The position numbers and the translations under genes were made by a program. From the IMG/VR virus record IMGVR_UViG_3300025010_001835, positions 1 through 20,524 of that record: a DNA stretch of 20,524 nucleotides; one strand, 5' to 3'. Position 1 is the first letter of the stretch, and every line of letters begins with the position of its first letter. Of this stretch, positions 1,311-19,252 are shown piece by piece. This DNA comes from a virus. The notes below the pieces were generated by a model. It ran no database searches, was not told the origin of the DNA, and saw only the letters and a program-made list of their open reading frames with translations.

Positions 1311-1739
1311 ATGGCATACCAGAAAAAACCTAAAAAGAGAAAGTCATCGTGCGTAAATCTTCAGGTTTTTAACTGGAATCCTCAAAAACGCAGAGCCGCG
1401 AGACTATTATCAGAAGGCACTAAAACAATTGATGAAGTTGCCGCAGAACTGAAAGTATCAGATCGAACTATATATAGTTGGAAACAATACCCTGATTTTT
1501 TGAAAGAAGTTGACCGCCTAACTTATCTCCTGGAAAATGCCACCCGAGCGGGAATTGTTAGAAAAGCTCTAATGGCACTCGATATTAAAGAATCTTATAT
1601 TTCTGAAGACAGAAGTACGTATCTTGATTATTTAGATTTCATTATAAAAATAATTCCGCAGGACATTAAAGAAGACGATGACAAGATGAAAGCTCTTACA
1701 GATGCTATCCTCAATAGTGCAAAGATGATAGGGAAATAA
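1311..1739 (+). CDS. terS: Terminase small subunit-like HTH protein
   Basis: A 142-residue protein whose residues about 23-72 form a homeodomain-like helix-turn-helix (WNPQKRRAARLL, then EVAAELKVSDRTIYSWKQYP). This phBC6A51-type domain is common in small terminase subunits and in DNA-binding proteins placed next to large terminases. In tailed viruses the small subunit recognises the packaging site and regulates the large subunit. The N-terminus is strongly basic (KKPKKRKSS), and the C-terminal half is predicted helical and acidic, as expected for an oligomerisation region. The large subunit follows after one base. Assignment rests on this HTH and the neighbour; a plain transcription regulator is the alternative. 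Confidence 0.75.
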   Translation: MAYQKKPKKRKSSCVNLQVFNWNPQKRRAARLLSEGTKTIDEVAAELKVSDRTIYSWKQYPDFLKEVDRLTYLLENATRAGIVRKALMALDIKESYISEDRSTYLDYLDFIIKIIPQDIKEDDDKMKALTDAILNSAKMIGK

Positions 1740-1740
1740 G

Positions 1741-3015
1741 ATGGTCTTCAAGCCTGGAATCTTTTCTGAAAAACAGATTGACGTAATGGCAAATTGTACG
1801 GCTACAATCAACCTTTTGGAGGGTGCCGTACGGTCCGGCAAAACGATAGCCTCTATTATTGCAGTCGTCAATCTCATTGTCAACGGCCCTCACGGCAATA
1901 TTCTCTTTGTCGGGAAAACGGATCGAACTCTTTTTAGAAATATCCTGCAACCAATCGAGGAAATATACGGGCCCTCAAATTTCAAATTTAGACGAGGAAC
2001 TGGAGAAGGCGAAATCTTCGGCAGGCACTTTTATACAGCAGGCGCTAACGATGAACGGGCCTACACTAAGATCCAAGGTTTAACGCTCTATCTCGCTTAC
2101 GGTGACGAAGTTGCAGCCTGGCCGGAATCATTCTTTCAGATGCTTATCTCTCGATTGTCTGAGCCTGGCGCGCGGTTCATCGGGTCCTTGAATCCAGAAG
2201 GACCATATCACTGGTTGAAAACAAAGTTTCTCGACCGGGAAAAAGAATTATCCTTGAAATCCTGGCATTTCAGACTTGAAAATAATCTTAATCTTGATCC
2301 TAACTACGTTGAGAATCTTAAAAAGTTCTATACAGGTATCTTCTACCGTAGATACATAAATGGAGAATGGTGTCTTGCGGAGGGCGCAATATACGACATG
2401 TTCTCGGAAGAGCGACACGTCGCAGAAGTAACACCTGATATCTGGATTAACGTTGTTCAAAAGTATGTTTTCGTTGACTATGGCACTTCCAATAAGTGTA
2501 TATTCCAACTGTGGGGTATCCTCGGAGGAAAACGCTATCTAAAAAAGGAATACTGTTATGACTCAAAAGAGCATGGCAAGCAAAAAACAGATAGTGAATA
2601 TGCCTCTGATATGGTTTCTTTCATCGGATCAGAGGACGTAATGTTCATCGGCGTAGACCCGTCAGCACTCTCTTTTAAGAACGAACTAGCAAGAAGAGGA
2701 CTCTGTATTCAAGACGCAGACAATAACGTCTTAGACGGCATTAGAGAGGTTTCCACGGAGCTCTCATTAAACAAGATTCAAATAGATCCTTCCTGCACGA
2801 ACTGTATAAGAGAATTCAGTGGTTACGTATGGGACACGAAAGCAGGCGAGAGAGGCGAGGATAAACCATTAAAACAGAACGACCATAGCATGGATGTACT
2901 TCGCTACTTTATTCATACAGTTCCGCTTATTGAATACGGGTATAATCACGCGAAAGATCAAGAAGTAGGATACTCATTCTCGGAATACTCAAATGACATA
3001 TATGAAAACTACTAA
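1741..3015 (+). CDS. terL: Terminase large subunit (packaging ATPase/nuclease)
   Basis: A full-length 424-residue large terminase. The N-terminal motor has a Walker A variant GAVRSGKT (residues 28-35), an adenine-side segment around FVGKTDRTLFRN, a Walker B strand ending in Asp122-Glu123 (LYLAYGDEVAAW), and a coupling motif GSLNPEG (148-154). The C-terminal RNase H-like nuclease shows its acidic set: Asp246 (VFVDYG), Asp306 (IGVDPSA), and Asp381/Asp385 (NDHSMDVLRYF). Such enzymes cut concatemers and pump dsDNA into a capsid through a portal. All catalytic motifs look intact, so the gene appears functional. Unusually, no portal, protease or capsid gene follows: the gene ends at a hairpin and converges on an unrelated operon. 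Confidence 0.93.
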   Translation: MVFKPGIFSEKQIDVMANCTATINLLEGAVRSGKTIASIIAVVNLIVNGPHGNILFVGKTDRTLFRNILQPIEEIYGPSNFKFRRGTGEGEIFGRHFYTAGANDERAYTKIQGLTLYLAYGDEVAAWPESFFQMLISRLSEPGARFIGSLNPEGPYHWLKTKFLDREKELSLKSWHFRLENNLNLDPNYVENLKKFYTGIFYRRYINGEWCLAEGAIYDMFSEERHVAEVTPDIWINVVQKYVFVDYGTSNKCIFQLWGILGGKRYLKKEYCYDSKEHGKQKTDSEYASDMVSFIGSEDVMFIGVDPSALSFKNELARRGLCIQDADNNVLDGIREVSTELSLNKIQIDPSCTNCIREFSGYVWDTKAGERGEDKPLKQNDHSMDVLRYFIHTVPLIEYGYNHAKDQEVGYSFSEYSNDIYENY

Positions 3016-3099
3016 ATGTTAACTTATATATACTACGCACTAAATATATTATATGGGTCTAAAATCCTCTTTCCCTTAAAAAACGACACTCCCCCGGAA

Positions 3100-3126
3100 A
3101 AGGGCAGTTTCTTACAGGCTGCCCTT
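3100..3126. terminator. Hairpin between convergent operons
   Basis: A perfect 8-bp stem, AAGGGCAG (3100-3107) with CTGCCCTT (3119-3126), has an 11-base loop and sits between the terminase gene and the opposing small-gene operon. On the plus strand it is followed by a pyrimidine-rich stretch (CTTTTCTCTCTTTT). The right arm lies in the end of the minus-strand gene. A two-way terminator is likely. Confidence 0.55.
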
Positions 3127-3336
3127 CTTTTCTCTCTTTTCGTAAAAATCTTGTAATGATTCATACCCACAATCAAGTGTTGCTGCGATCCAGCCGGCTT
3201 TTAGCGCGACATCTATTATTTCTTTGTCACTGTCGTCCCATCCTGCTTTGAATTCCTCAAATTGTTTTTTAGTTCGTTCGCTCATTACGATATCTAATAG
3301 TGTACTAAGGGCGTTGTATTCTTCAGTATATGACAT
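3112..3336 (-). CDS. Small hypothetical protein, 74 aa
   Basis: Last of ten genes in the minus-strand micro-operon. The protein is acidic and helical, with two short hydrophobic helices (VALKAGWIAATLDCGY near residues 43-58) but no membrane segment. No family recognised. GGAGG lies eight bases before ATG 3336 on the minus strand, inside the end of the previous gene. The end overlaps the terminator-like hairpin. Confidence 0.75.
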   Translation of the reverse strand: MSYTEEYNALSTLLDIVMSERTKKQFEEFKAGWDDSDKEIIDVALKAGWIAATLDCGYESLQDFYEKREKKGSL

Positions 3337-3338
3337 TT

Positions 3339-3482
3339 TTAAGCCTCCATCAATCTCAATACTTCTTCCATAACGGGAAATACACTAACTTCTCTGCACG
3401 CAAATCTCATTTCATCTTGGAAGTCGCGGGATTGTTCTTTTGAAAGTACGAGTTCATGGTTTTCCGAGAGGATTAGTTTCAT
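3339..3482 (-). CDS. Very small hypothetical protein, 47 aa
   Basis: The frame starts MKLILSENHELVLSKEQS and ends at a TAA two bases before the next gene. GAGAGG stands seven bases before the ATG. The spacing to both neighbours (2 bases each) and the clear binding site make this a real member of the micro-operon. No family recognised. Confidence 0.72.
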   Translation of the reverse strand: MKLILSENHELVLSKEQSRDFQDEMRFACREVSVFPVMEEVLRLMEA

Positions 3483-3484
3483 TT

Positions 3485-3670
3485 TTATTCCTCTCTTATT
3501 TTATCAAATTCATCCAGAGCAAACTGATAAGCCCATTTATATGAATTATTTTTAATTTCCCTTTCGGTGTCTTGCGCTTCAATTGCTTCCTTTTCATATT
3601 TCAAACGTTCATCTGACTGTGCGTTTAACCAGTCTCTGTATTTTTTTATTTTTGCGTCATCCATACACAT
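3485..3670 (-). CDS. Small charged helical protein, 61 aa
   Basis: A highly charged protein (many Lys, Glu, Asp), likely one long helix or coiled coil across about residues 5-58. AAGGAGG lies nine bases before ATG 3670; an inner ATG at 3664 is less well spaced. It lies between micro-operon neighbours with gaps of 2 and 4 bases. No family recognised. Confidence 0.75.
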   Translation of the reverse strand: MCMDDAKIKKYRDWLNAQSDERLKYEKEAIEAQDTEREIKNNSYKWAYQFALDEFDKIREE

Positions 3671-3674
3671 TGTT

Positions 3675-3797
3675 TCAATCCTCCTTCGGACAGTTCCCTT
3701 TTCTACACGCTTTCATATCGCCAAGCTTGCAACATCCTAGATAATGGTCAAAGTCTGGACACTCTGGATTATAGGTGTTCTCGTTTCCTCCTGTCAT
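3675..3797 (-). CDS. Cys-rich mini-protein, 40 aa
   Basis: A 40-residue protein with five cysteines (Cys13, Cys22, Cys23, Cys31, Cys36), in an order such as ECPDFDHYLGCCK and ACRKGNCPKE. It probably binds zinc or another metal. GGAGG precedes the ATG by ten bases in the same GGAGGAATAAAAACA-ATG leader used by its neighbours. It fills the space between two other operon members with gaps of 4 and 5 bases, which supports it despite its size. Confidence 0.7.
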   Translation of the reverse strand: MTGGNENTYNPECPDFDHYLGCCKLGDMKACRKGNCPKED

Positions 3798-3802
3798 TGT
3801 TT

Positions 3803-3961
3803 TTATTCCTCCACTTCTCCCCATCCTGCGTTATTCTCATTACATACCCATTCTAAAAACCGTTCGTTAATATCGTCCTCTGTTTCGTCATCGTCAAATT
3901 CAACGATTGCAGAGATTCTTCCGGTTGTTGTATATGTAACAAATTCTATTTTTTTAGTCAT
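3803..3961 (-). CDS. Small acidic hypothetical protein, 52 aa
   Basis: The protein has an N-terminal beta-like stretch (KKIEFVTYTTTGRISAIVEF), an acidic middle with Asp/Glu at residues 23-30, and a C-terminus containing ERFLEWVCNENNAGWGEVEE. The form resembles many small phage-encoded proteins of unknown role. GAGGAGTGAG stands before ATG 3961, with the ACA-ATG ending common to this operon. Confidence 0.72.
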   Translation of the reverse strand: MTKKIEFVTYTTTGRISAIVEFDDDETEDDINERFLEWVCNENNAGWGEVEE

Positions 3962-3978
3962 TGTTTTACTCACTCCTC

Positions 3979-4164
3979 TCAATCAATGAATTTATTTGCA
4001 TGGTAAATTAACCCCCAATGCGGGCATTTAAAACGGTCATAATCAAGTCCTTCGCATTTTACAGTACTTGCAAAGGCACATACATAATTGATTTTAGTAT
4101 AGCTTACATTCGTTGAAAATTTACATTTATAATCTTTGTCATAGTTGGTTGTTGGTTCTTTCAT
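3979..4164 (-). CDS. Small Cys-containing hypothetical protein, 61 aa
   Basis: Cysteines at residues 14, 29, 37 and 47 (YKCKFS, YVCAFA, VKCEGL, FKCPHWG) suggest a small metal-binding domain. GAGGGAGA precedes the ATG. The start overlaps the stop of the upstream gene (ATGA at 4161-4164), pointing to translational coupling. No family recognised. Confidence 0.72.
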   Translation of the reverse strand: MKEPTTNYDKDYKCKFSTNVSYTKINYVCAFASTVKCEGLDYDRFKCPHWGLIYHANKFID

Positions 4165-4322
4165 TTAGATTCTCCCTCGAAACTTGTGTAGATCTCCATA
4201 ATAATCCCAACACACTCATTTAATAGAAGAAGTCCTTCTTCTGGATTCAAATCAAGCCGGTTTACTGCTTTTTGAGTAGTTTCTAGAAGGTTTCTTTTCA
4301 GGACTATTCTTGATTTGGTCAT
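4161..4322 (-). CDS. Small helical hypothetical protein, 53 aa
   Basis: A mostly helical 53-residue protein with a hydrophobic segment (EGLLLLNECVGIIMEIY) that could pack in a dimer; it is too polar for a clear membrane helix. GGAGTGAAACA precedes ATG 4322, inside the end of the upstream gene, and both ends overlap neighbours by four bases. No family recognised. Confidence 0.72.
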   Translation of the reverse strand: MTKSRIVLKRNLLETTQKAVNRLDLNPEEGLLLLNECVGIIMEIYTSFEGESK

Positions 4323-4474
4323 TGTTTCACTCCACATACTTTTCTCTCTTCATTCCACCATGCACACTGATTCTCAATACATAGCGATGCTCTTTGCATA
4401 TCGGTAAGTGAGCTATGGCGCATCGTTATTGCTACTAAACCCGCGTACACAGGACATATTTTTTTATCTGACAT
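4319..4474 (-). CDS. Small zinc-binding-type protein with CAWW motif, 51 aa
   Basis: A 51-residue protein with Cys7, Cys32, Cys37 and Cys47. The pattern CP-AGL near the N-terminus followed by CIENQCAWWNEERKVCG matches a layout I know from many small bacteriophage and archaeal element proteins of unknown function; metal binding is probable. GAGGGAATAATAACA precedes the ATG. This is good evidence that the operon is viral-like accessory cargo. Confidence 0.75.
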   Translation of the reverse strand: MSDKKICPVYAGLVAITMRHSSLTDMQRASLCIENQCAWWNEERKVCGVKQ

Positions 4475-4479
4475 TGTTA

Positions 4480-4632
4480 TTATTCCCTCCTCAAACACTT
4501 ATTCCTATAATCTCGCCTTTGTTTTGCTCTCATGTTTCTGCAACCATCGGAGCAGTATTTCCTTTTCGGTGATGACGAAGGAAATGATTTTCCGCACACG
4601 CCACATTTTATTATATAGTATGAAAAACGCAT
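4480..4632 (-). CDS. Small zinc-finger protein, 50 aa
   Basis: A treble-clef-type finger: Cys10, Cys13, Cys27 and Cys31 (KCGVCGKSFPS, KYCSDGCRNMRAK), followed by a basic tail rich in Arg and Lys. Nucleic-acid binding is likely. The longest open frame starts at 4665, but GAAGGAGGAATAAAACA stands directly before ATG 4632, and that shorter form avoids a 29-base overlap with the upstream gene, so 4632 is chosen. Confidence 0.75.
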   Translation of the reverse strand: MRFSYYIIKCGVCGKSFPSSSPKRKYCSDGCRNMRAKQRRDYRNKCLRRE

Positions 4633-4636
4633 TGTT

Positions 4637-4819
4637 TTATTCCTCCTTCTTCTCAAATTCTTCAAGCTTCTTTCTTAAGAGTTCATTCTCAATCTTGTAA
4701 GTTCTCGCTTCGTATTTATAAGCACGAATCAACGAATCATAAGATGTGTGCCCTTCGTCCTTTTTCTGAGTGTCTAACTCTATCTTGAGTTCATCACTAA
4801 CTGAAATCATTTTTACCAT
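4637..4819 (-). CDS. Antitoxin-like or RHH-like small protein, first gene of micro-operon
   Basis: A 60-residue protein. The N-terminus (MISVSDELKIELDTQKK, then SYDSLIRAYKYEA) matches the strand-helix-helix layout of small archaeal VapB-like or ribbon-helix-helix proteins. The C-terminal half is a charged coiled coil. The start could be ATG 4819 or ATG 4810. TATAAATA lies about 25 bases before ATG 4819 on the minus strand, so this mRNA is probably leaderless from there. As first gene of a ten-gene operon, it may be an autoregulator. No toxin partner is evident. Confidence 0.7.
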   Translation of the reverse strand: MVKMISVSDELKIELDTQKKDEGHTSYDSLIRAYKYEARTYKIENELLRKKLEEFEKKEE

Positions 4820-6273: not shown

Positions 6274-6687
6274 TTAATTATTCACAAGTTTATCATACTT
6301 CATATTCATATCCGAAGTATCTGCTGTTTTACCGTCCTGCATTTCATCAATAACCTGAACACACGCCAAAAGATATTCCTGGAACTCTTCCTTATTATCG
6401 CCTACTTCTCTTTCAGACCAATTCCAATGCGTTATCAATAATTTATTTTTTGCAATCCTAAGATTATATTCAGTTGGATCAGCAATAACACCCTGCATCA
6501 TATCATCAACAGCTAAAGCCCGATCCGAAAACGGATCAAAGTTGACAAACTCAGGTGACTCTAAAATAGATTGCGATGGTGTAGAATTTGAGAGGCTGTA
6601 CCCAGAAACCCCTATCAGAATAGTTATCAGAGCAACACATAATTGCTCAAACGGTGTTAAATTCTTTACAGTTGCCGCGATATCCAT
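6274..6687 (-). CDS. Membrane-anchored hypothetical protein, 137 aa
   Basis: One membrane helix near the N-terminus (about residues 13-32, FEQLCVALITILIGVSGY) followed by a soluble domain of about 100 residues that is acidic and helical. With a short N-terminus inside, the domain would face outward, as in VirB8-like or virion-associated anchored proteins, but no family is recognised. AGAGGT lies before the ATG, within the end of the upstream gene; the two are separated by one base. It is cut off from the secretion-like operon by about 660 bases. Confidence 0.72.
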   Translation of the reverse strand: MDIAATVKNLTPFEQLCVALITILIGVSGYSLSNSTPSQSILESPEFVNFDPFSDRALAVDDMMQGVIADPTEYNLRIAKNKLLITHWNWSEREVGDNKEEFQEYLLACVQVIDEMQDGKTADTSDMNMKYDKLVNN

Positions 6688-6688
6688 A

Positions 6689-6949
6689 TCAATACCTCTT
6701 TGTGAAAATCCTTACCTCTGTTCCCACTGGCACATCTTTAGGAAACCGGACACTGATAACCCTGCTTTCTGGAACAGTATGTGCAGATCTTTCAACCCAT
6801 TGGCTTTTATCGAGTAGATAACCAGATTCAGCATTACCTAACGTTTTTTTAATATATTCTTCGATTAGTTTTTTATTCTTTTTCGAGAGATGGGACAAAA
6901 AAAGCTGTTCATCCCCATCATTTTCGGATTCTTTGTCTTTAGTGTCCAT
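6689..6949 (-). CDS. Soluble hypothetical protein, 86 aa
   Basis: The N-terminus is acidic and probably disordered (residues 1-15), the middle is a Lys-rich helix (22-36), and the C-terminal 25 residues look like beta strands (SRVISVRFPKDVPVGTEVRI). No family recognised. GAGGA precedes the ATG by about four bases. It forms a two-gene operon with the membrane-anchored protein that follows, so the two may interact. Confidence 0.72.
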   Translation of the reverse strand: MDTKDKESENDGDEQLFLSHLSKKNKKLIEEYIKKTLGNAESGYLLDKSQWVERSAHTVPESRVISVRFPKDVPVGTEVRIFTKRY

Positions 6950-6989
6950 CGGTCCTCAAAAATTTACAGATATACTGATTGTAAACATT

Positions 6990-6999
6990 ATATTTAAAA
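6990..6999 (-). promoter_or_regulatory. TATA box of the 6274-6949 operon
   Basis: TTTTAAATAT on the minus strand is centred about 46 bases before ATG 6949. A start site 25 bases downstream leaves a leader of about 20 bases containing the GAGGA binding site. Confidence 0.5.
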
Positions 7000-7327
7000 G
7001 ATTACTACATTCGTTCTTATTTCGGGTTTACTTTGTACTTCCAGCCTTATTTTTTATGAACGCTCCAGTTTTTGTACTCAGGTTCTTATTTTCCATGAAA
7101 TCCCTTGGATTTGTAACATCTGAAAGATGTCTCAACGAAGTTGACTGACCGGAAGGAAGTTATTTTTTTAGATATAGTTCCGATTCCGCAGGATGTTAGG
7201 AACGCATTCTGAAAAAATAGCTTCATGAAGGGAAGTAGCGACTCGCATCCGATGCCGGACATTCCTCTGTTTAGCTTAAAAGCACGTTCAAATCTGCCCG
7301 TTTTGCTGCTTTTTGTTTTCACTATGT
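7000..7327. other. Gap without a convincing gene; possible host-type repeat
   Basis: About 330 bases between two minus-strand operons. Two overlapping frames are open here: an 85-codon frame on the minus strand (7343 to 7086, TTG start) and a 34-codon frame on the plus strand (7225-7329). Neither has a good start context, and the minus-strand frame directly follows a T8 terminator. The stretch 7150-7320 looks less A/T-rich than other gaps in the window. It reminds me of short sequences repeated in Methanosarcina chromosomes, but this is from memory and unverified. I see no clear target duplication or terminal inverted repeat. Confidence 0.35.
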
Positions 7328-7335
7328 AAAAAAAA
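7328..7335 (-). terminator. T8 tract ending the secretion-like operon
   Basis: On the minus strand, TTGCTTCC followed by eight T comes ten bases after the stop of the VirB4 gene. This is a typical archaeal oligo-T terminator and marks the end of the operon that starts near 12685. Confidence 0.6.
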
Positions 7336-7345
7336 GGAAGCAATA

Positions 7346-9991
7346 TTAAGCCTCCATTTCAACGGAAAGCTGCTGAAAACCTGCTAGATTTTCATTTGGT
7401 TGGTTTTGTTTTTCTGCCTGCATCTCGTCCCGGATCTGCTCAAGTTTTCCAAGCAATTTATAGCCCTGGGGGAATACATAATAATACTCTCCATCTTCGT
7501 TTTTACCTGATAACATGCACTCAGGCGATGAAGTCATTTCTCCGCAGGTTGCCCCGGTCCCTGTAAAGATAATATGCTTATAACCAGCAGCCCGCGCAGC
7601 TTTTAATTTATCATTCCACTTCTCAATTATGTGATTTGTGGACCCTTCAAACTCAAGACAGCCCCCTTTCCAAGTGATGTCTGCGTTATCGGTGTGATGG
7701 ATCTCAACGTCTTCAAAACCGTGAATTCTCATCCAACCTGCTATTATACAGACGGCTGCATAATGTTTGTAGCCTTCAACACCTACTTTATCCTGTTTTT
7801 CGGTTCCGTCAACATTCAGCCCGTCGATGAATTTGAGCCTATCTGTCCGGATCTTTACAAAAATTCTGCCAGATGCGAACGGGTCCTGAACTCTGTACTC
7901 TGTAAACCCTGGATAAGTCTTTCTTGGTTCTCCACTTATCCAGCTATCAATAAATATTTCCTCTTTTATGTAAATTTCTCTTACGGGTTTTATGATTTCA
8001 AAACCAGACGCAGTTGCTACTTTTTGTTCTACTGGTTCCAGCCCTCTTGTACTTTCAAAGGCTGCTTTTCTAGGCATTTCATCAAGTTCAACTATGAACT
8101 TTGTAGCAATTCTATTTCTGATATAGTGTCCATGTCCAGACCCTTTCTTCATAAGTCCAAGTCTGTATTTTTCAGGGATTTTTAATACTTCCATGTAAAT
8201 ATCTATGTTCATATCATCGAGGTTATCAAGGATGAACAAATTTTTACAGTTTGCACGGAGTGTATCCATAAACTGAACATTTGTTAGAGGGTTCTGCATT
8301 CCAAATAAAGGAGTAATACCCGGAGCCCTGCCTTCTGTCAAGCTTCTTTCCATGTACGGGATGAGTTCTTTTGTTTGTGACAGGTTCCTTACTTCATCGA
8401 AAATTAAGAATGTTTTCACTCTCGGCTGCCCGTTTGCAGGTTTAGGGAAGTATAGCGAGTTACACGCCCCCATGATCTGAATGCTTACAGCACTTCTGAG
8501 CCTGTCAGGGAGCTGGCTAATATCAAATAGCTGAAGGTTTTCTCCTAAACTCATATGCTCGTGGCTACTTGCCCACCACCAAAGAGTCCCGCCCTTCTCT
8601 GCGTTCATGGTGTTCATTATGAGCATATCAAGGGATGGATCGTGATAATAAGTTTCAGATGCTTTGTTGTTATACTGTTCCTTCCAGTATTCTCTAAATT
8701 CATGAACTGAATACCAAGGGATAGCTCCGGGAATATCCCACAATTCCGTATTGATAGGGTTGCCGTCTTCGTCTATAACACCACACTTTTTATAAATGTC
8801 AATCAGAAGTCCGGTGAGAAGCCCAGACTGCCTTTCATTAAGCCCACCGACCCATGCACTAAAGATACCCTGCACGACCTCAAACCAATCGTCTTTAGCT
8901 TTTCTGTAGGAAGCCGGACTTGTACCCATGTAGGTTTTATCGTAGAATATAATAAGAGGGTCAGGGTTTACACCATTTGAGCCCCATATTGATATCCCTC
9001 CTCCGTATTCCATGCAGAAATTAATATAGTCTGTTCCGTCATTATCTTCATTTTTCGGCTCAATTAATTTTACATGGTATCCAAGCGCGAGAGCATGAGA
9101 TATGATGTTAAGGAACATTGTTGTTTTGCCAGACCCCGGAGGACCTATTATAATTGATCCTTCCGGGTTTCTCTGGTTTGGACATACTTTTATAGGTATT
9201 AATGTCTCGGCGTTTGTGCAGAAGATAGGTCCTTCCTGTGCGAATCCAGCGTCCTGGTTTCTGATTGGGAACATGGACATTATAGTATAATTGTTAACGG
9301 GCTGCAAGAAGTTAGCACTTATCTGATTGGAAGGAATGACAGCTTTAAGAATATCCTGTTGTGCAAACTGAGGGATTTCACATCTAATTCCTCCCCTCAA
9401 GAGTCCTGCTCTTATCCTCGAAACTGCCGTATCTACTTTCTGTTTGTTTGGCCCAGTAATTACAATAGGCATTGCATACCAGGAATAGTGATCATCGCCA
9501 TCAAAAACTACGGTGGTATGTCGCGTCACATCTCTCTCGGCGACATTATTGTACATGATGTTAGAAGACGTGGCATCTCCGTTATGGACCTGCACTTTGA
9601 CAGTTGAGATGTTTCTATGAATAGCTTTTAATTTCTGCGCTTCAAGTTCTCTTCTCATCGTAATGAATTTGTGACCAATAAGAACAGGTACTCCTTCCTG
9701 TTTTGCGATTGTTAGTATTTTTGTGATAGTATCAATTCTGTAATGTTTATCAAATCCCTTTTCCATAGGGTTAAGTTTGTCCTGCCTACCTACAAGCATT
9801 CCCTGAGCAATTGTGTATTTATTGATCTGTGTGTAATACCCATTATCCGGCCCGTCTGTCACGGGCTTAAGATCATTAATACAAGATTGAAAAGCTATTT
9901 CCTGCTGTAGAAGGGCATAAGACTGATCTGTAATTATGGATTCCGTACTCTTCTGAACCTTCCTGTTGCTCCACATGGTCTTAATATTCAT
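7346..9991 (-). CDS. virB4: VirB4-like ATPase with extra C-terminal nuclease-like domain
   Basis: An 881-residue VirB4/TraC-type ATPase, the motor of type IV secretion and conjugation systems. Residues about 95-280 match the VirB4 region before the motor. Walker A is GPPGSGKTT (283-291). NPDPLIIF (342-349) corresponds to the conserved NP motif after it. Walker B is FLIFDEVRNLSQ (528-539), followed by LTEGRAPGITPLFGMQNP with the conserved Arg and Gln of this family. Residues about 680-860 are not part of a standard VirB4: they contain VEGYKHYAAVCIIAGWM, then ADITWKGGCLEFEGST with Asp771, Glu780 and Glu782, then KHIIFTGTG, a layout like PD-(D/E)XK or replication-relaxation domains. The ATG overlaps the previous gene by 11 bases, with GGGAGG before it. 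Confidence 0.9.
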   Translation of the reverse strand: MNIKTMWSNRKVQKSTESIITDQSYALLQQEIAFQSCINDLKPVTDGPDNGYYTQINKYTIAQGMLVGRQDKLNPMEKGFDKHYRIDTITKILTIAKQEGVPVLIGHKFITMRRELEAQKLKAIHRNISTVKVQVHNGDATSSNIMYNNVAERDVTRHTTVVFDGDDHYSWYAMPIVITGPNKQKVDTAVSRIRAGLLRGGIRCEIPQFAQQDILKAVIPSNQISANFLQPVNNYTIMSMFPIRNQDAGFAQEGPIFCTNAETLIPIKVCPNQRNPEGSIIIGPPGSGKTTMFLNIISHALALGYHVKLIEPKNEDNDGTDYINFCMEYGGGISIWGSNGVNPDPLIIFYDKTYMGTSPASYRKAKDDWFEVVQGIFSAWVGGLNERQSGLLTGLLIDIYKKCGVIDEDGNPINTELWDIPGAIPWYSVHEFREYWKEQYNNKASETYYHDPSLDMLIMNTMNAEKGGTLWWWASSHEHMSLGENLQLFDISQLPDRLRSAVSIQIMGACNSLYFPKPANGQPRVKTFLIFDEVRNLSQTKELIPYMERSLTEGRAPGITPLFGMQNPLTNVQFMDTLRANCKNLFILDNLDDMNIDIYMEVLKIPEKYRLGLMKKGSGHGHYIRNRIATKFIVELDEMPRKAAFESTRGLEPVEQKVATASGFEIIKPVREIYIKEEIFIDSWISGEPRKTYPGFTEYRVQDPFASGRIFVKIRTDRLKFIDGLNVDGTEKQDKVGVEGYKHYAAVCIIAGWMRIHGFEDVEIHHTDNADITWKGGCLEFEGSTNHIIEKWNDKLKAARAAGYKHIIFTGTGATCGEMTSSPECMLSGKNEDGEYYYVFPQGYKLLGKLEQIRDEMQAEKQNQPNENLAGFQQLSVEMEA

Positions 9992-11057
9992 TTATATTCC
10001 TCCCGACGGCAAGATCTCCTGTAAACAGTCCATTAATGATATACGCGAGGTCTTCAGGGTCTTTTATCAATACGGTTTCAATTCCAATTTCATTAAGTGT
10101 AAGTTCAAATTCATCTCTTACCTTTCTCATGTTTTCAACGTGTTCATATTCATGCACTGCGGGGGGTAGTCCAATATGAATAATAAAAAGAGGCTCTTCC
10201 ATGCCTACTCTGTCTTTAAATTGGTTGTATATGCTCCAAAGTGCCTGTTCTCGAATCGGGCTAAGATTCGGAAGTTTAAGCTGTTCTTCCACATCGTCCA
10301 TGATATAGCTGATATTGTGCCCGGATGCCATTGTGGTACTCACCAAATGATCTGCTGGAAGGGTTGCTACTGCTTCTAGAAAATTAGCAATTATTACTTC
10401 ATCTGTATCTGAAAACTGAGGTACTGCCAGCAGGTTAAAACCGTGATCTCCCTGATATGGGTGCTCATAAAACTCAGTATCTTTATTGATTTTTTCAGTA
10501 GTCATCCCAGTTTCTCTATCAAAGTGGGTAATCCCAGTGAATGCTATAATTACATCTCTCGGATTCGCGAAAAAGTGGAATCTTTTAAATATGATTCTCA
10601 GAAATTTGAATAATATTCTCTTAAATACATTTGGTTCGACTCCGGTTCCATACTTTGAAAAACTTTCTTTCCCTTTTAATATTCTCATTTTAAAGCGGAA
10701 ATGAGCAATATTGTAATCGAGTTTCTGCTGATTTCCTGCGTGCGTGTACCAAACAGCAGGAACCAGAACCATGAAAATTATAATGACAATACTTTTCAAA
10801 ACGTTCTTCCAGACTATACTACTCAAAAGAAAGCCTATTGTGATACCATTTTCAATGTATGCAGGATCATTTTCATAGTTTGCTGGAAATGAGATAGTAT
10901 GTAACGCCGACCACGCAAAACCAAACACGCTCAGTACTTCAAAGAATAGGAGCCCGTAAAAAACAAGATTCCAAGTGGCTGAATGACCATCTTTGTTCGG
11001 GTCCACGATATCAACGAGAATATTCGGCTCGTACTTTGCTGGATTAGTTTCACTCAT
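9981..11057 (-). CDS. VirB3/VirB4-N-like membrane protein
   Basis: A 358-residue protein. Two membrane helices lie at about residues 30-50 and 72-104, as in VirB3/PrgI proteins. The rest is a basic linker (118-162) and then a cytoplasmic domain (about 165-350) with the look of the VirB4 N-terminal domain: alternating strands and helices, e.g. GFNLLAVPQFSD, EPLFIIHIGLPPA, then a helix VRDEFELTLNEIGI. VirB3 is often fused to VirB4 in bacteria; here the joint would lie after the N-domain, and the motor follows as a separate gene overlapping by 11 bases. The start is ATG 11057, with AGGTG eight bases before it, rather than TTG 11063. The family call is by pattern and position only. Confidence 0.7.
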   Translation of the reverse strand: MSETNPAKYEPNILVDIVDPNKDGHSATWNLVFYGLLFFEVLSVFGFAWSALHTISFPANYENDPAYIENGITIGFLLSSIVWKNVLKSIVIIIFMVLVPAVWYTHAGNQQKLDYNIAHFRFKMRILKGKESFSKYGTGVEPNVFKRILFKFLRIIFKRFHFFANPRDVIIAFTGITHFDRETGMTTEKINKDTEFYEHPYQGDHGFNLLAVPQFSDTDEVIIANFLEAVATLPADHLVSTTMASGHNISYIMDDVEEQLKLPNLSPIREQALWSIYNQFKDRVGMEEPLFIIHIGLPPAVHEYEHVENMRKVRDEFELTLNEIGIETVLIKDPEDLAYIINGLFTGDLAVGRNINEY

Positions 11058-11059
11058 AA

Positions 11060-12148
11060 TCAAACACCTGCAACTTTTTTACCTTTTAATACTGCATATA
11101 CAAGAAGAACTGTCACAAAGACAATGTTAAGAATCGCACCAAACACTATTCCAACTGTGACATATATCTGAGATCCTAACCATTGACTTGTAATTACTCC
11201 AAATGATGTACAGCAAATCCTAATTAAATCACATAAACAGAATACTCCAAACGCCCCCCATGCAACTAATTCAATGTTTTTTGCAGTGTCGGGAGCATTA
11301 AACAGGACTACAAAATCAGTTATAATATACATTACAAAAATTAATGCCCCAAATGCATAAACCCCGTACTCCCCGACTTGGGTTTGAAATGCGCTGAGAA
11401 ACATTGCAATTCCGGTAATTGCCCGGATAAATATATTATCAGTAGCAGAACTAAGCACCCCGGACGAGGTTTGCAGCATAGAAGTAATTAGATAATTCCT
11501 GAGTAAAATGATTAATACAAATGCAACAATGGCTTTTGCAGGTCTTGTTATAGCCCACATACAAGTTGTATGAACTCTATTAGGATTATAAGGTGCATAT
11601 GCCCCGCTTGCACTTCTTTTCCAATCTCCATATACTTCAGGTTTATGTTCTTGAAATCCGGCTAATAACATTGAACCAAGAATAACTATAATTGTTGAAA
11701 GTAACAAAAAAACACCAGAAATTAATAATGCTGGAACAACAATTGGATGTTTAAACGGGTTGAGTTCTTTAGCGGTGGCCGTATAAGAAACTACACCGTT
11801 TGTATCGGTTTCGATATCAGTAGCATAAATAGAAACAGACCCTTCAAACAAATCGTCAATCATGGTATTTGTGTACCCCATATAGGATTTTTCCATTGCC
11901 GTCTGAAGTGCCTTTATACTGTTGTTTCTATCTTCTGTAGGATCAACTTTAATGGTATCCTGTGTATTTTTTTGTGATGATCCCCCGTCCTCATCCTTTG
12001 AATCCCCTTTTTCATGGTTTTCATCTGTCACATCCGTTTTAGATCCGTCATCGTTGATGTGGATAACCCGCACGCTTCCAGTGCCTGCCATAGCTGTAAA
12101 TGGCATCATTAAAAGAATAAAAAGGATAAGGAGTGTAATTACTTTCAT
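11060..12148 (-). CDS. VirB6-like polytopic membrane protein
   Basis: A 362-residue protein with a signal peptide (residues 1-21, ending AMA-G), an acidic extracellular segment (about 22-135, many Asp, with DDGSKTDVTDEN), and about six membrane helices near 136-162, 203-223, 237-257, 262-283, 294-313 and 327-352. A basic loop (165-203) should be cytoplasmic. In type IV systems VirB6/TrbL proteins of this shape form the inner-membrane channel, and CedA has the same place in archaeal DNA import. GAGGG lies seven bases before the ATG. It ends four bases before the ATG of the next gene. The role comes from topology and operon order; no signature motif was identified. Confidence 0.7.
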   Translation of the reverse strand: MKVITLLILFILLMMPFTAMAGTGSVRVIHINDDGSKTDVTDENHEKGDSKDEDGGSSQKNTQDTIKVDPTEDRNNSIKALQTAMEKSYMGYTNTMIDDLFEGSVSIYATDIETDTNGVVSYTATAKELNPFKHPIVVPALLISGVFLLLSTIIVILGSMLLAGFQEHKPEVYGDWKRSASGAYAPYNPNRVHTTCMWAITRPAKAIVAFVLIILLRNYLITSMLQTSSGVLSSATDNIFIRAITGIAMFLSAFQTQVGEYGVYAFGALIFVMYIITDFVVLFNAPDTAKNIELVAWGAFGVFCLCDLIRICCTSFGVITSQWLGSQIYVTVGIVFGAILNIVFVTVLLVYAVLKGKKVAGV

Positions 12149-12162
12149 CGTTTACCCTCGCG

Positions 12163-12660
12163 TTATCTAAACAGTGCAACCAGGAAAATGACTCCTGCTA
12201 CGCAGAGAACCCCCTCGACTATCTGAGAAGTATATGCCCTCGTTATTCCCTTTGAATCTTTTATTGCCTGTGCTGCTTTAACAGGGTTGTCTCCATGAGC
12301 GGCTTTGCCTCCTTTCAAGGTATTCCAGACGACTACAGAGATATACGTGAAAACAACAGCCACCCCTAATATAAGGATCACAATGACGGCCAGCCCCCAC
12401 ACCGGGATGGATGCAGCCAGATCTATTGCATTTTGTACGCTGATGTCCTCGAATGGATCAACATTGTGCTTTCTCTCAAATCCTAAAAACTCATCATCCG
12501 AGATTATTTTATCAGTTACATCTTTATCAGAATCAACTCTATCGGTGACGACGTTCCCATCTTTATCTTTTATTGTAACGGCCCCGAATGCCGGAGAAAC
12601 CGTTAAGCTCAGTACCATAAACAGAATCAGTATAGATCCTATAGTTTTCAGAGTTCTCAT
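12163..12660 (-). CDS. VirB2-like pilin candidate
   Basis: A 165-residue protein with a signal peptide (residues 1-26, AFGA), an Asp-rich segment (28-75), a long hydrophobic helix (83-112), a basic loop with many Lys (113-143), and a second hydrophobic helix ending at the last residue (144-164). Two helices joined by a basic cytoplasmic loop after a signal peptide is the layout of VirB2/TrbC pilins and of archaeal CedA1/TedC pilins; the added acidic segment is unusual. The start is ATG 12660, which has CGAGGG before it and fits the signal peptide, not the open-frame start at 12717, which lies upstream of the predicted transcript start. First gene of the secretion-like operon. Confidence 0.68.
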   Translation of the reverse strand: MRTLKTIGSILILFMVLSLTVSPAFGAVTIKDKDGNVVTDRVDSDKDVTDKIISDDEFLGFERKHNVDPFEDISVQNAIDLAASIPVWGLAVIVILILGVAVVFTYISVVVWNTLKGGKAAHGDNPVKAAQAIKDSKGITRAYTSQIVEGVLCVAGVIFLVALFR

Positions 12661-12705
12661 TTTATCCCTCGGTTTTACTAAGTATTCAGTATAAATGTTT
12701 ACAAA

Positions 12706-12715
12706 GTATATAAAC
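12706..12715 (-). promoter_or_regulatory. TATA box of the secretion-like operon
   Basis: GTTTATATAC on the minus strand is centred about 50 bases before ATG 12660. Transcription would start near 12685, giving a leader of about 25 bases with the GAGGG binding site. Confidence 0.6.
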
Positions 12716-12744
12716 ACATCGCAATTTTGTAAACATTCTAATAT

Positions 12745-12791
12745 AAAAAAAATAAGATTGTTCAGGCTAAATGTTTCACTGACAGCCTGAA
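12745..12791 (-). terminator. Hairpin plus T8 after the beta-helix gene
   Basis: A perfect 8-bp inverted repeat, TTCAGGCT (12761-12768) with AGCCTGAA (12784-12791), spans the stop codon with a 15-base loop. On the minus strand it is followed eight bases later by eight T (12745-12752). This looks like a classical intrinsic terminator and separates the beta-helix gene from the secretion-like operon, which has its own promoter just beyond. Confidence 0.75.
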
Positions 12792-14255
12792 AAACAAGTA
12801 TGCAATTATAAAAGAAATTACAATTAGTATTGCTGCCGGATGAAACTTGTTAGGCTTAAACGTCTCTGAAGAAACACTCATCGACGGCGTGAACTTTCCG
12901 GTTGGAGTAACGCAGGTTATTTTAATCTGGTCTGCTGAAACATTACCAGGGACATGTAATGAATCTCCAATATGAATAAATTCTCCATCCCATATCGAAG
13001 TTTCAGTAAATACTATTCCATGTATGGTTTTTTCTCCGATCATGAGAGTATGGGTTTCACGTTCTCCATTGATGTCATACACTACCTCAGAAACACCGTT
13101 TAAAGCTGTTTTAGGGATGTAAATTATTGTTGTTGTATTGTTCCCTAACGTGTAATAGGTAATTGTCCCATGTGCCTTTAGAGAGCTTTCATCCATGTGC
13201 TCCGGGAGAACGACGGTGGTATTGGCTCCGACCTGTGTATATGCATCGACGTTTAAAAAATCAAATATCGAATCAAACACTTCCTCGCTATCCTCAATAC
13301 TCGGCTGATTATCCCACGAAACAGGCTCCCCGTCAATCTCAACAGGCGCGGCATCCAAAAATTCATTGTCATGAATATAAATGTTATCCGATGGCTTCTG
13401 CCCTGCTGCATCAAGCCAGATCGCCCTAAGCCCAGGATCAGCGAACGTATTAAACCGAACTTCAATGTTTGAAGTGTGCCACTTGGATTTCACACCGTTA
13501 TAACCTTTTGAAGCTCCTGCATCTCCGATCTGTAAACCGCTATGACCATTTTTGTAAAACCCGTAACTGTCACCTTCGTATGAGTAGAATAGGTTATTCT
13601 CGATTAGGCAGTCTTGGCAGTTATCCAAGCGAGCACAATCGGATGTAATACCGGCAATTTTATTATTTTGAATGAGTCCGTTCTTGACAACTGAATAATA
13701 AATCCCTTCATGTTGACAATTGGAAATTACATTATCATGACAGGATACACCATCTGCAAATCTCACATAAACAGCATCAGAGAATGAGTTATAGAATTTC
13801 ATATCGCATATTTCGATATTCTCAACAAAATTATTTGATGATCCATAAATCTGAATAAGTTTCTCACAGTCATGAGCGGTATCCGATCTCGATTGATGAT
13901 ATTTCTGAGGGAGATTTCCGATATTTCCATCAATCTGAAATCCTGAAATCTCAATATTACTGACTCCACTGCCGGTTATTACTCCCGTGGAACCTGTGAA
14001 CCATTGTGAAGAGCCGGGCCATACTCTTATTATTGCGCCTGGATCACCGCTCAGGACTCTATCAGATTTCAAATAGATGGGTGCATCGACTTCATAGACG
14101 CCAGGCTCTAAGTAAACGTTTCCATCTTTTAAAGCATCATTAATTTGTTTTTGGTTAGAGTGCCCGGAATCAGGACTTAATGTCGTGCCCGCTTGTGCGA
14201 GTGAAACTGAATAATATAAAAGTAACAAGATTAAAAGTATTTTCTTAATGTGCAT
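12762..14255 (-). CDS. Secreted, membrane-anchored parallel beta-helix protein (disaggregatase-related)
   Basis: A 497-residue surface protein. A signal peptide covers residues 1-22. Residues about 45-315 form a right-handed parallel beta-helix of the pectate-lyase/NosD class, with many turn repeats containing Asn and Asp such as NIEISGFQIDGN, NCQHEGIYYSV and RLDNCQDCLIENNLFYS. A beta-rich domain follows (about 340-465), then a membrane helix (472-491) and a short basic tail. The helix region closely resembles, as I recall it, Methanosarcina disaggregatase-related cell-surface proteins, which act on or bind the methanochondroitin matrix. TATATATT about 25 bases before the ATG indicates a leaderless mRNA. 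Enzyme activity cannot be judged; it may instead be an adhesin or receptor-binding protein. Confidence 0.85.
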   Translation of the reverse strand: MHIKKILLILLLLYYSVSLAQAGTTLSPDSGHSNQKQINDALKDGNVYLEPGVYEVDAPIYLKSDRVLSGDPGAIIRVWPGSSQWFTGSTGVITGSGVSNIEISGFQIDGNIGNLPQKYHQSRSDTAHDCEKLIQIYGSSNNFVENIEICDMKFYNSFSDAVYVRFADGVSCHDNVISNCQHEGIYYSVVKNGLIQNNKIAGITSDCARLDNCQDCLIENNLFYSYEGDSYGFYKNGHSGLQIGDAGASKGYNGVKSKWHTSNIEVRFNTFADPGLRAIWLDAAGQKPSDNIYIHDNEFLDAAPVEIDGEPVSWDNQPSIEDSEEVFDSIFDFLNVDAYTQVGANTTVVLPEHMDESSLKAHGTITYYTLGNNTTTIIYIPKTALNGVSEVVYDINGERETHTLMIGEKTIHGIVFTETSIWDGEFIHIGDSLHVPGNVSADQIKITCVTPTGKFTPSMSVSSETFKPNKFHPAAILIVISFIIAYLFFRLSVKHLA

Positions 14256-14834: not shown

Positions 14835-15029
14835 ATGACTAAACGTGAAGATCTTATAAATGAACTATTAGAGGAAAATTACGACATCGTTGATATTGTG
14901 AATGTCATATGGGAACGAGATAACACAAGCGATTTAGAATTATGTGAAGCACTTGTCGGAATTATGACAGATAAAGAAGTTGAAAAGGTATTAGCAGAAA
15001 TTGAAGAAAATAGAGAAGAAGAGGATTAA
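14835..15029 (+). CDS. Small acidic helical protein, 64 aa
   Basis: Very acidic, all-helical protein (DLINELLEENYDIVDIVNVI, later EVEKVLAEIEENREEED). The open frame begins at GTG 14826, but TGGAGTGA is best spaced for ATG 14835, so this start is used. No family recognised; an acidic protein of this size could be a DNA mimic or inhibitor, which is speculation. Confidence 0.68.
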   Translation: MTKREDLINELLEENYDIVDIVNVIWERDNTSDLELCEALVGIMTDKEVEKVLAEIEENREEED

Positions 15030-15033
15030 AAAA

Positions 15034-15612
15034 ATGAACCTGAAACATATCATAACTGTACTCATTCTCTCATTTTTTGTATGCTCAGCGGCATCAGCAG
15101 AAACAGCAAACAAAGACCTGCCCACAAAAGGAGAACTGACCGATTTCACAGAAAGTATTTCATTCATGTATGATTTCACAGCATCCGCCTCGGCTCACTC
15201 AGAAGAAGAACACCCTACATGGAAATGGGATCTCTGGACATATGAAGACGGAAACAAATCAAAAAACGTGATCAGTTTTTATTATACAGATCCTGAATCA
15301 CAAAAAGGATACGGAAGCATCTATTATGATGAAAACGGGGAGATAGTAAAAAGCATGTGTGGCGTAAATTATGAGCTATATGAGAGTTATCGCGGAAAAG
15401 AACCAGTCGAAGAAGAGAAAATAATTGAAGATACATCTGAAAGAGAGACAATCGAAGAAGAAATCGAAGAAGAAGTAAAACAGGAAGATGAACTGGAAGA
15501 AGACGAAACCATAATTAAAATTGAATATACAAAAAATGACCTGAAAAAAATGGATAATAAGGAAAGATGGGGATTGATTAAGGATATATATCATGCATTA
15601 TTCGGAGAGTAA
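15034..15612 (+). CDS. Secreted Glu-rich protein, 192 aa
   Basis: A signal peptide covers residues 1-22 (cleavage after SASA). Residues about 30-120 form a beta-rich domain with aromatic strands (FMYDFTASAS, WKWDLWTYEDG, GYGSIYYDENGEIV). Residues 123-159 are a low-complexity Glu-rich stretch, followed by a basic helical end (170-192). I see no membrane anchor. GAGGATT precedes ATG 15034, and the longer TTG-15001 frame would add a charged stretch before the signal peptide, so 15034 is chosen. It may be an exported or virion-associated protein; the other large exported proteins (beta-helix, VirB2/VirB6-like) are on the opposite strand nearby. Confidence 0.72.
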   Translation: MNLKHIITVLILSFFVCSAASAETANKDLPTKGELTDFTESISFMYDFTASASAHSEEEHPTWKWDLWTYEDGNKSKNVISFYYTDPESQKGYGSIYYDENGEIVKSMCGVNYELYESYRGKEPVEEEKIIEDTSERETIEEEIEEEVKQEDELEEDETIIKIEYTKNDLKKMDNKERWGLIKDIYHALFGE

Positions 15613-17225: not shown

Positions 17226-17308
17226 GTCAAAGACGTGAAAGAGAGATGCCATTGTATCAAGAGTGGCTTGAAAAAATAAGAGAGGTGCTTAAGAACTATG
17301 GCAGATGA
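17222..17308 (+). CDS. Micro-protein, 28 aa
   Basis: A 28-residue basic helix (MSQRREREMPLYQEWLEK, then IREVLKNYGR). Its start overlaps the previous stop (ATGA), and its end overlaps the next gene by 11 bases. The C-terminal KIREVLKNYGR closely matches the end of the 18156 gene (KIREAIKKHVR), part of a duplicated gene junction. It may serve mainly to couple translation. Confidence 0.5.
   Translation: MSQRREREMPLYQEWLEKIREVLKNYGR
17273..17300 (+). repeat. Gene-junction leader repeat, copy A
   Basis: A 28-base element with core AATAAGAGAGGTGCTTAAGA ends at the start codon of the 17298 gene. Copies at 18131-18158 and 18366-18393 each match it at 24 of 28 positions by eye. It includes the ribosome binding site and encodes the C-terminus of the gene before. 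Confidence 0.65.
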
Positions 17309-17543
17309 ACCAATAAATTATGAAATTAAAATCAGAGAACGAATAAAAGCATATGAACAGTGCCTGGATGACCTGGAAAACAAACAGCACGAGTTAACCC
17401 CGGATGAAATTATTTTAAAATATGGAATAGGGGACACCGAGGATCACTGGTATTTATGCGAATCGATATATAACACACTGGATGAATTGTGTGGACTTCT
17501 TGGGGAAAAATGGGAGGGGAAACGAGAGAATTATTGTATGTGA
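17298..17543 (+). CDS. Hypothetical protein, 81 aa
   Basis: An acidic, helical protein with a coiled-coil-like first half (RERIKAYEQCLDDLENKQHE) and Cys at 22, 54, 65 and 80, not in a clear zinc pattern. GAGAGGTG lies twelve bases before the ATG within a leader repeated twice more downstream. No family recognised. Confidence 0.7.
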   Translation: MADEPINYEIKIRERIKAYEQCLDDLENKQHELTPDEIILKYGIGDTEDHWYLCESIYNTLDELCGLLGEKWEGKRENYCM

Positions 17544-17549: not shown

Positions 17550-18137
17550 ATGCCAGATGAAACTAAAGTCGTCTTTGATGATGTACAGATTGGAACATGT
17601 GAGGATGTCCACTTTGAAGAAAGAAGAGCACACGGCGACGTTGAAAACTTAATCTCTCCCGAATCAATACAAGCGCTTCAGAACGCGTTCCTTACAATAC
17701 AGAACGCTTTAAAATCATTCAGTGAAGCAGTTAACGAGGCTCTTGTAAATGCAGAAAATGAAAATCATGAAACTGTAACTAAACTCATTGAAGCATATCA
17801 AACCGCACGCGAAGTTAAAAAACGTGAATATGATCCTGAAATAATAGAGCTCTCACAGACTACAATCTACCGTTATGATGACTGTGAGCTAGTGAAATAT
17901 GTTTTTGGGGATGCTGTAAAGATATATTTAGATCTGTTTGCAATGCATGGTTTTACAAGCGGTGACATTCTAAGATACTGCACTGAAGTATTAATGGAAC
18001 GCGATATGAAGAAAATGGAAGGATTCTCAGAAGAACTAAAAGATACAAATAAGAAACTTGAAACAAACGGATTGGATAAAAAACGTAATGCTGAAAAGAA
18101 ACTCCCCATGCACTTAATAAAAGGATGGAGACAATAA
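17550..18137 (+). CDS. Helical coiled-coil protein, 195 aa
   Basis: The protein is almost all helical, with amphipathic repeats around residues 36-90 (LQNAFLTIQNALKSFSEAVN) and a charged end (150-195). A central segment (IYRYDDCELVKYVFGDAVKI, ending CTEVLMERDM) may be a compact helical domain. GTGAGGGA lies before the ATG. No family recognised. It is the largest soluble protein of the accessory run and could be structural or regulatory. Confidence 0.7.
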   Translation: MPDETKVVFDDVQIGTCEDVHFEERRAHGDVENLISPESIQALQNAFLTIQNALKSFSEAVNEALVNAENENHETVTKLIEAYQTAREVKKREYDPEIIELSQTTIYRYDDCELVKYVFGDAVKIYLDLFAMHGFTSGDILRYCTEVLMERDMKKMEGFSEELKDTNKKLETNGLDKKRNAEKKLPMHLIKGWRQ

Positions 18138-18158
18138 GAGATGTGCTTAAGAAACATG
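18131..18158 (+). repeat. Gene-junction leader repeat, copy B
   Basis: Core AATAAGAGATGTGCTTAAGA ends at ATG 18156. Here the preceding gene stops at 18137, so the part coding for the KIREVLKK-like tail is out of frame, and the binding site GAGAGG has become GAGATG. Confidence 0.6.
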
Positions 18159-18401
18159 GAACACTCTTTAAAAGTCGGTGACGAAATAGGGATTAGATAT
18201 GATGGAATTGCAGGTTTTGGAATATATAGACTAGGAAAAATTTTAGAAATCAAAGACAATGATCTTATCATAACTGATTTTGCATCTTTCTATAAAGGGA
18301 GAAAAATAATGGGGGTACGTGGAGAACATATGTTATCTTTAGTTCCCGCAGTCGAAGCAAAAGAAAAAATAAGAGAGGCGATTAAGAAACATGTCAGATG
18401 A
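18156..18401 (+). CDS. Hypothetical beta-barrel-like protein, 81 aa
   Basis: The protein reads as short beta strands (LKVGDEIGIRYDGIAGFGIY, KILEIKDNDLIITDF) like a small SH3 or KOW-type barrel, then a helical tail (KEKIREAIKKHVR). No family recognised. The open frame begins at ATG 18141, but the repeated leader places the start at ATG 18156. The end overlaps the next gene by 11 bases. Confidence 0.68.
   Translation: MEHSLKVGDEIGIRYDGIAGFGIYRLGKILEIKDNDLIITDFASFYKGRKIMGVRGEHMLSLVPAVEAKEKIREAIKKHVR
18366..18393 (+). repeat. Gene-junction leader repeat, copy C
   Basis: Core AATAAGAGAGGCGATTAAGA ends at ATG 18391. As in copy A, it encodes the last residues of the upstream gene (KIREAIKKHVR) and supplies the binding site for the next, with an identical 11-base gene overlap. 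Confidence 0.65.
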
Positions 18402-18672
18402 AAGAGAACACACTGATTCAGAAAAAGAACTATTCAAATTAAAAGATAAAGCAGACTCAGCCGGATATACTGAATTCAAGTTTGCAGACGGGTCCTATCT
18501 CTGTGAAATCACAAAAGTACATGATAGATATATGATCTCATTTTATAAAGGAATAGAAGAATGTGAACTTTTGAAAACTTTTAGAGTTAGTGAATTCCCG
18601 AATTCCGAATGGTGGCACGCTAAAGCGAATTCTGTTATATTGAGTAAGTCTTTGAGTACATTTGGATTGTGA
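18391..18672 (+). CDS. Hypothetical protein, 93 aa
   Basis: A charged N-terminal helix is followed by beta strands (YTEFKFADGSYLCEITKVHD, then RYMISFYKGIEECELLKTF). It may be a small beta-sheet domain. No family recognised. GAGAGG lies eleven bases before ATG 18391 in the repeated leader. Confidence 0.7.
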   Translation: MSDEREHTDSEKELFKLKDKADSAGYTEFKFADGSYLCEITKVHDRYMISFYKGIEECELLKTFRVSEFPNSEWWHAKANSVILSKSLSTFGL

Positions 18673-18898: not shown

Positions 18899-18958
18899 CT
18901 AAAAGAACCAATTCATTTCTCATTCTCCTGTTTTTTACGCATTATCACAGTTAGTAAG

Positions 18959-18968
18959 TTATATATAC
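18959..18968 (+). promoter_or_regulatory. TATA box of the 19015 gene
   Basis: TTATATATAC predicts a start near 18988 and a leader of about 27 bases with AAAGGAGGG (19001-19009) as binding site. A short inverted repeat, TTTGTA with TACAAA (about 18980-18997), lies at the predicted start site. Confidence 0.6.
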
Positions 18969-19014
18969 TATTAGTACATTTGTATTATTGTACAAATTCT
19001 AAAGGAGGGCTACA

Positions 19015-19173: not shown

Positions 19174-19252
19174 GAACAATAAGCATCAGGGATGTTACCA
19201 GCACCCCCGAAGCCGAACAATTAAGAACGCCATATTAGTATTATATCTTCAA

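Follow-up and report, generated by a model that had tools for sequence, protein, structure and literature searches.

The Ced and Ted machines of Thermoproteota are presented as minimal archaeal T4SS with VirB2-, VirB6- and VirB4-like parts (PMC9905601), and a second account reports that homologues of bacterial relaxases are absent from archaeal conjugation (PMC11868833). In Thermus transjugation, the TdtA motor (FtsK-HerA family) and a NurA-like nuclease are both needed for efficient DNA donation (PMC5365140). Looking at Bacillota plasmids, we also observed that in four plasmids (loci L033-L040) a Replic_Relax-type gene comes immediately after an FtsK/SpoIIIE motor gene and overlaps its end by 4 nt, and that a Replic_Relax protein is present in the conjugative plasmid pGS18, which also has a VirB4. 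This vicinity of Replic_Relax and motor genes suggests a recurrent pairing of motor and nuclease, as separate genes.

Here we analyzed a window of 20,524 nucleotides, which is the entire IMG/VR record IMGVR_UViG_3300025010_001835. A single ORF on its minus strand (7346-9991) encodes 881 residues, in which a VirB4-type motor is followed by about 240 further residues (Table 1). The motor and a separate conserved C-terminal region are found in one chain, and this chain belongs to a conserved gene module.

Table 1. Positions in the window of the 881-residue protein, its predicted parts, the surrounding module and the terminase genes
Feature	Coordinates	Strand	Basis or remark
VirB4-like ATPase with C-terminal nuclease-like domain, 881 aa	7346..9991	(-)	profile and hhalign matches
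RecA-like motor region, residues ~271-640	8072..9181	(-)	VirB4 profile and hhalign matches
Walker A, GPPGSGKT, residues 283-290	9122..9145	(-)	homologues identical except A/S at 287
Walker B, FLIFDE, residues 528-533	8393..8410	(-)	D532 and E533 invariant
Linker region, residues 641-727	7811..8071	(-)	lower conservation; without confident fold
PD-(D/E)XK-like domain (predicted), residues ~728-865	7397..7810	(-)	AF2 pLDDT 78, Foldseek matches, motif
H743, first helix	7763..7765	(-)	invariant; equivalent His invariant in Replic_Relax alignment
Mosaic segment, residues 750-779	7655..7744	(-)	site counts
D771, start of second strand, PD position	7679..7681	(-)	invariant, AF2; GPD in P0004
E780, third strand, D/E position	7652..7654	(-)	invariant, AF2
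E782, third strand, place of Lys in canonical ExK	7646..7648	(-)	invariant, AF2
K795, second helix, candidate relocated catalytic Lys	7607..7609	(-)	invariant; Lys equivalently placed in Replic_Relax
137-aa protein, one N-terminal hydrophobic stretch	6274..6687	(-)	conserved in all records
86-aa small protein	6689..6949	(-)	matched by sequence in G003/G004 alone; G001/G002 have ORFs of similar size in this position
360-aa protein, two N-terminal TM helices and soluble domain	9981..11063	(-)	candidate VirB3/VirB4-N-like partner; no profile match
362-aa polytopic membrane protein	11060..12148	(-)	VirB6/CedA-like by position and topology only; no sequence match
184-aa protein, signal peptide, two hydrophobic helices around basic loop	12163..12717	(-)	VirB2/CedA1-like, topology only
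497-aa secreted beta-helix (NosD-like) protein, C-terminal TM anchor	12762..14255	(-)	
Terminase small and large subunit genes	1311..3015	(+)	viral context

The VirB4-type motor and its homologues

A profile search with TIGR00929 (VirB4) matched the motor at residues 82-297 (E 2e-9, 36 bits), and hhalign aligned residues 161-552 with the VirB4 proteins of the Geobacillus pGS18 and Halobacillus plasmids with 96.7% probability (E 4e-10). Together with the conserved Walker A and B motifs, these matches extend the VirB4 similarity over the motor and bear out the initial annotation, which had called it a VirB4 ATPase. As the score lies under the curated TIGR00929 cut-off (36 versus 643 bits), the motor is a divergent VirB4 relative, not a member by that cut-off. 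The CedB profile also matched the motor weakly (E 7e-6), reaching 24.9 of the 700 bits of the CedB equivalog NF041017 cut-off.

The plasmid VirB4 proteins are only about 617-622 residues long and have no counterpart of the C-terminal ~240 residues, which are therefore an addition. The stretch 7412-7954, which had been proposed to hold a domain beyond the motor, corresponds exactly to residues 680-860 and does lie past it; its boundary was nonetheless drawn too early, since residues 641-727 form a poorly conserved linker, and the compact domain covers residues ~728-865. Identity in the linker is 52% with close relatives and 32% with the divergent homologue P0004, against 78-80% and 46%, respectively, in the motor.

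Apart from the window, scans of viral contigs turned up relatives in only four records, G001 (2667528052), G002 (3300005263), G003 (3300005405) and G004 (3300027566). As the motor gene of G004 is identical to that of G003, there are four distinct sequences with the window included, and the three others share 69, 69 and 41% identity with the window protein. The patterns used picked up no relative in GTDB contigs, and searches of the phage and plasmid collections with the window protein gave no match, while P0004 retrieved Bacillota VirB4 proteins at 20-23% identity. The additional C-terminal region was intact in all four distinct sequences, which come from independent records, and the fusion is thus not an assembly error.

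Predicted fold and candidate active-site residues of the C-terminal domain

The initial annotation had seen in the C-terminal region a resemblance to the PD-(D/E)XK core. AF2, run on the four-sequence alignment, modeled residues 724-866 as an alpha-beta-beta-beta-alpha-beta core (pLDDT 78, pTM 0.73), in agreement with that proposal; this is the one confident model of five, the remaining four being at 42-50. Its elements follow the order helix, short strand, strand, strand, helix, strand, helix, strand, helix. A separate full-length run gave the identical order, and its model was discarded for a pLDDT of 38. Conserved acids fall on predicted strands 2 (D771) and 3 (E780), as expected for PD-(D/E)XK proteins.

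The best matches in Foldseek searches were mostly restriction-endonuclease-like by name. Against BFVD, about 17 of the ~26 named matches in the top 50 were nucleases, resolvases or RPB5; among the best ones were restriction endonucleases (the first with E 0.017), endonuclease I, Holliday junction resolvase, ERCC4, RNA polymerase subunit 5 and a PD-(D/E)XK domain protein (TM 0.53). Against the PDB, matches were mainly RPB5 chains, plus EcoT38I, at E 0.12 and above. The N-terminal domain of RPB5 is classed as restriction-endonuclease-like. No match in BFVD or the PDB had E < 0.001, Pfam and hhalign linked the domain to no nuclease family, and a sequence search of the PDB with the C-terminal profile returned unrelated matches only, the best being a kinase (E 0.008).

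We also looked at the residues themselves. H743, D771, E780 and E782 were found where the initial annotation had placed them and, together with K795, are invariant in the four distinct homologues (window included), so that its three acids withstood the comparison; since the four sequences agree at about one third of all columns of the domain, this conservation by itself is moderate evidence. In one homologue the Pro-Asp is spelled out (GPDITWRGGCLEYE). At the deepest split, the nuclease-like domain is 55.6% identical versus 41.1% for the whole protein, an excess that is partly due to a mosaic segment described below. The canonical Lys of the ExK motif is absent, position 782 being Glu, and K795, a K-L in the following helix, may substitute for it judging from the alignment. 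The proposed residue set keeps its three acids and H743 and has to be extended by K795; the nuclease resemblance stands for the predicted core and the acid positions and fails for the ExK Lys, and the fold matches are enriched in nuclease-related names at E-values of 0.017 and above. Considering the AF2 core, the best Foldseek matches and the motif in common with Replic_Relax, the C-terminal region likely has a PD-(D/E)XK-like (restriction-endonuclease-like) fold.

A particular likeness to replication-relaxation proteins had also been suggested. Plasmid pGS18 encodes a true PF13814 protein (P0005, E 9e-10), and its alignment with five relatives showed invariant H, PD, ExQ and K. The expression H-x(24-40)-D-[hydrophobic]-x(6-20)-[hydrophobic]-E-[hydrophobic]-[EQD]-x(11-14)-K-[hydrophobic] matched all six of these Replic_Relax-related proteins and all motor homologues, none of the other 735 ORFs of the five viral records, and shuffled domains in 0 to 5 of 2000 trials. 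Having been written after both families were seen, it supports a similar arrangement, not descent. Profile PF13814 did not match the C-terminal domain, while it matched P0005 as a control, and hhalign of the domain against Replic_Relax gave a probability of 0.1. The suggested likeness thus holds at the level of the motif (H..D..Ex[EQ]..K) and not as membership in the family.

Of 299 informative sites, 262 place the window protein with G001/G002 and 37 place it with G003, but within residues 750-779 13 sites go with the distant G003 and 1 with G001/G002, versus 24:261 elsewhere (Fisher 2e-12, for a segment chosen post hoc; none of 1000 permutations attained the scan maximum). At the DNA level, the stretch for residues 745-782 is 71.9% identical to G003 and 54.4% identical to G001. 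This 30-residue segment is, as a statistically clear result, a mosaic between lineages. Synonymous sites look saturated, which would mean either an old exchange or the existence of two alternative versions of the active-site segment.

Gene module and viral context

The genes at 6274-14255, all on the minus strand, are conserved and syntenic in all records, the small and the two-TM proteins being the most divergent. The module runs from the beta-helix protein through a two-TM VirB2-like protein, a polytopic VirB6-like protein and a second two-TM protein to the motor and two small proteins, with TM positions taken from a hydropathy scan. In the window and in L002, the motor gene and the gene of the 360-aa protein just upstream of it share 11 nt; the overlap is also present in L003 (G002) by ORF coordinates, and in L009 it is 11 nt too, provided that the TTG at 8078 is the motor start. 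The VirB2-, VirB6- and VirB3-like roles are putative assignments from topology, gene order and the precedent of Ced/Ted, and sequence comparison does not support them: PF04956 (TrbC family) was found neither in the 184-aa protein nor in the five records, and a TrsD-like protein for the two-TM protein and the TrbL family for the polytopic one were rejected for lack of profile similarity. Searches for VirD4 (PF02534), for a relaxase (PF03432, the relaxase family searched) and for Replic_Relax found none in the five records, which are possibly incomplete; the pair of relaxase and VirD4 coupling protein expected of a conjugative T4SS was not detected in them.

Beside the module, on the opposite strand (15001-15612, +), lies a gene for a probably secreted 203-aa protein, kept in G002 and G003/G004, which may belong to the module. 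In L003 (5128-5694, +), a 188-aa ORF of G002 that reads as HNH/NUMOD-looking comes just before the beta-helix gene.

Profiles support the genes for terminase, minor head protein and tape measure. In G004, the module (24033-32403) has the minor head protein gene (18924-19856) on one side and a conserved gene at 32746 on the other; by gene order only, the latter and the genes from 34290 onward would be the prohead protease and capsid genes. The gene order in G001 is as in G004, so that in G001 and G003/G004 the module adjoins head genes in the same order and strand, and G002 has head and tail genes in the same record, 40-60 kb from the module. An Orc1/Cdc6 closest to those of Methanosarcina plasmids (32.5%) in G001 and an MCM in G002 point to an archaeal host, and the module carriers are probably tailed viruses of methane-producing archaea (Methanosarcinales).

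The window has no tRNA or Rfam family, and TTTAAATA boxes occur at chance frequency, giving no evidence for promoters. Between terminase and module lies a tandem run of small ORFs of 47-74 aa (3033-4819, -). A 40-nt repeat, 73-88% alike, is found at 17270-17309, 18128-18167 and 18363-18402, where it spans three successive gene junctions (the end of one ORF and the start of the next). Large proteins starting with an Mtd_N (major tropism determinant) domain are encoded in G001 (47875-49974) and G002 (55199-57427), one with a polysaccharide deacetylase domain and the other with a beta helix; they are possible variable receptor-binding proteins of archaeal viruses.

Proposed role and comparison with known systems

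We give about half of our confidence to a reading in which the 881-aa chain serves as the motor, with a nuclease built in, of a minimal T4SS-like machine that is carried by tailed archaeal viruses, probably of Methanosarcinales. The polytopic (VirB6/CedA-like) protein and the two-TM (VirB2-like) protein would form a channel, and the motor would lie on its cytoplasmic side, together with the two-TM partner encoded just upstream, and would move DNA that the C-terminal domain would cut or nick during loading or delivery. One chain would then do the work of the relaxase or NurA-type nuclease that elsewhere acts beside a separate motor. VirB4 motors also move proteins. In a wider reading, which is conceivable and which we hold to be improbable, the viruses encode a conjugation-like machine in which one VirB4-nuclease chain takes the place of both relaxase and coupling protein, and viral or host DNA either passes between cells with no need of a virion or is processed during entry.

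The domain might instead derive from a PD-(D/E)XK fold and be catalytically dead, binding DNA or docking substrates or partners as RPB5 does. The missing canonical Lys agrees with this, and so does the predominance of the non-enzymatic RPB5 jaw domains among the fold matches in the PDB, but D771, E780, E782, K795 and H743 are all retained across 41% identity and the Lys at an alternative place agrees with Replic_Relax, and we find a dead domain doubtful. That the region is an unrelated alpha/beta domain with a nuclease likeness by chance seems unlikely to us, as topology, the acids on strands 2 and 3 and the names of the fold matches all agree, even if no sequence profile matched and Foldseek E-values exceeded 0.01.

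Other explanations concern the whole locus. Pairs of a HerA-like motor and a nuclease are frequent among defence systems, and a superinfection-exclusion or defence effector, in which a HerA/VirB4-type motor with a nuclease destroys incoming DNA at the membrane, would also fit the mosaic active-site segment and the match of PADLOC mad8 to the motor. This match is limited to the ATPase core, however, and the neighbours are conserved membrane and surface proteins, placed in the head cluster of G001 and G003/G004, not defence genes, which makes an effector quite unlikely. To the idea of a conjugation system from a host or plasmid that ended up in mis-binned or mis-assembled viral contigs we give very little weight: in the window, terminase and module are on opposite strands and the terminase is unmatched in the other records, but the module genes are syntenic, and the head genes on either side of them in G001 and G003/G004 agree in order and strand.

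If the reading of a T4SS-like motor with a built-in nuclease is true, a T4SS-type motor and a DNA-cutting domain share one polypeptide, and such a machine resides in tailed-virus genomes; the open-access literature searched contained no description of a VirB4 with a nuclease domain, nor of a VirB4 in tailed viruses. The protein would be a testable candidate for the missing DNA-processing step of archaeal conjugation, and the line between viral and conjugative spread would be blurred.

Compared with known systems, the motor is closest to the VirB4/TrsE-type motor of pGS18 (DUF87, WP_012301112) from Bacillota conjugative plasmids, with which it shares a homologous RecA-like motor of ~390 residues and a separate preceding gene, there of ~345 aa; the pGS18 protein, in contrast, has 617 aa without a C-terminal nuclease-like domain and is accompanied by a relaxase and VirD4. 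Replic_Relax (PF13814) of Bacillota plasmids has the same order and spacing of H..PD..ExQ..K, but it is a separate protein beside an FtsK-type motor, with no VirB4 fusion and no profile similarity. The Ced/Ted systems resemble the module in their VirB2/VirB6/VirB4-like parts and in the weak CedB profile match, whereas they are host-encoded, the window motor misses the CedB cut-off, and the available portions of the two accounts (PMC9905601, PMC11868833) mention no fused nuclease domain. TdtA and its NurA-like partner, although encoded by separate genes on an ICE and not a virus, and with a different nuclease fold, offer a functional precedent for a motor plus a nuclease in DNA donation.
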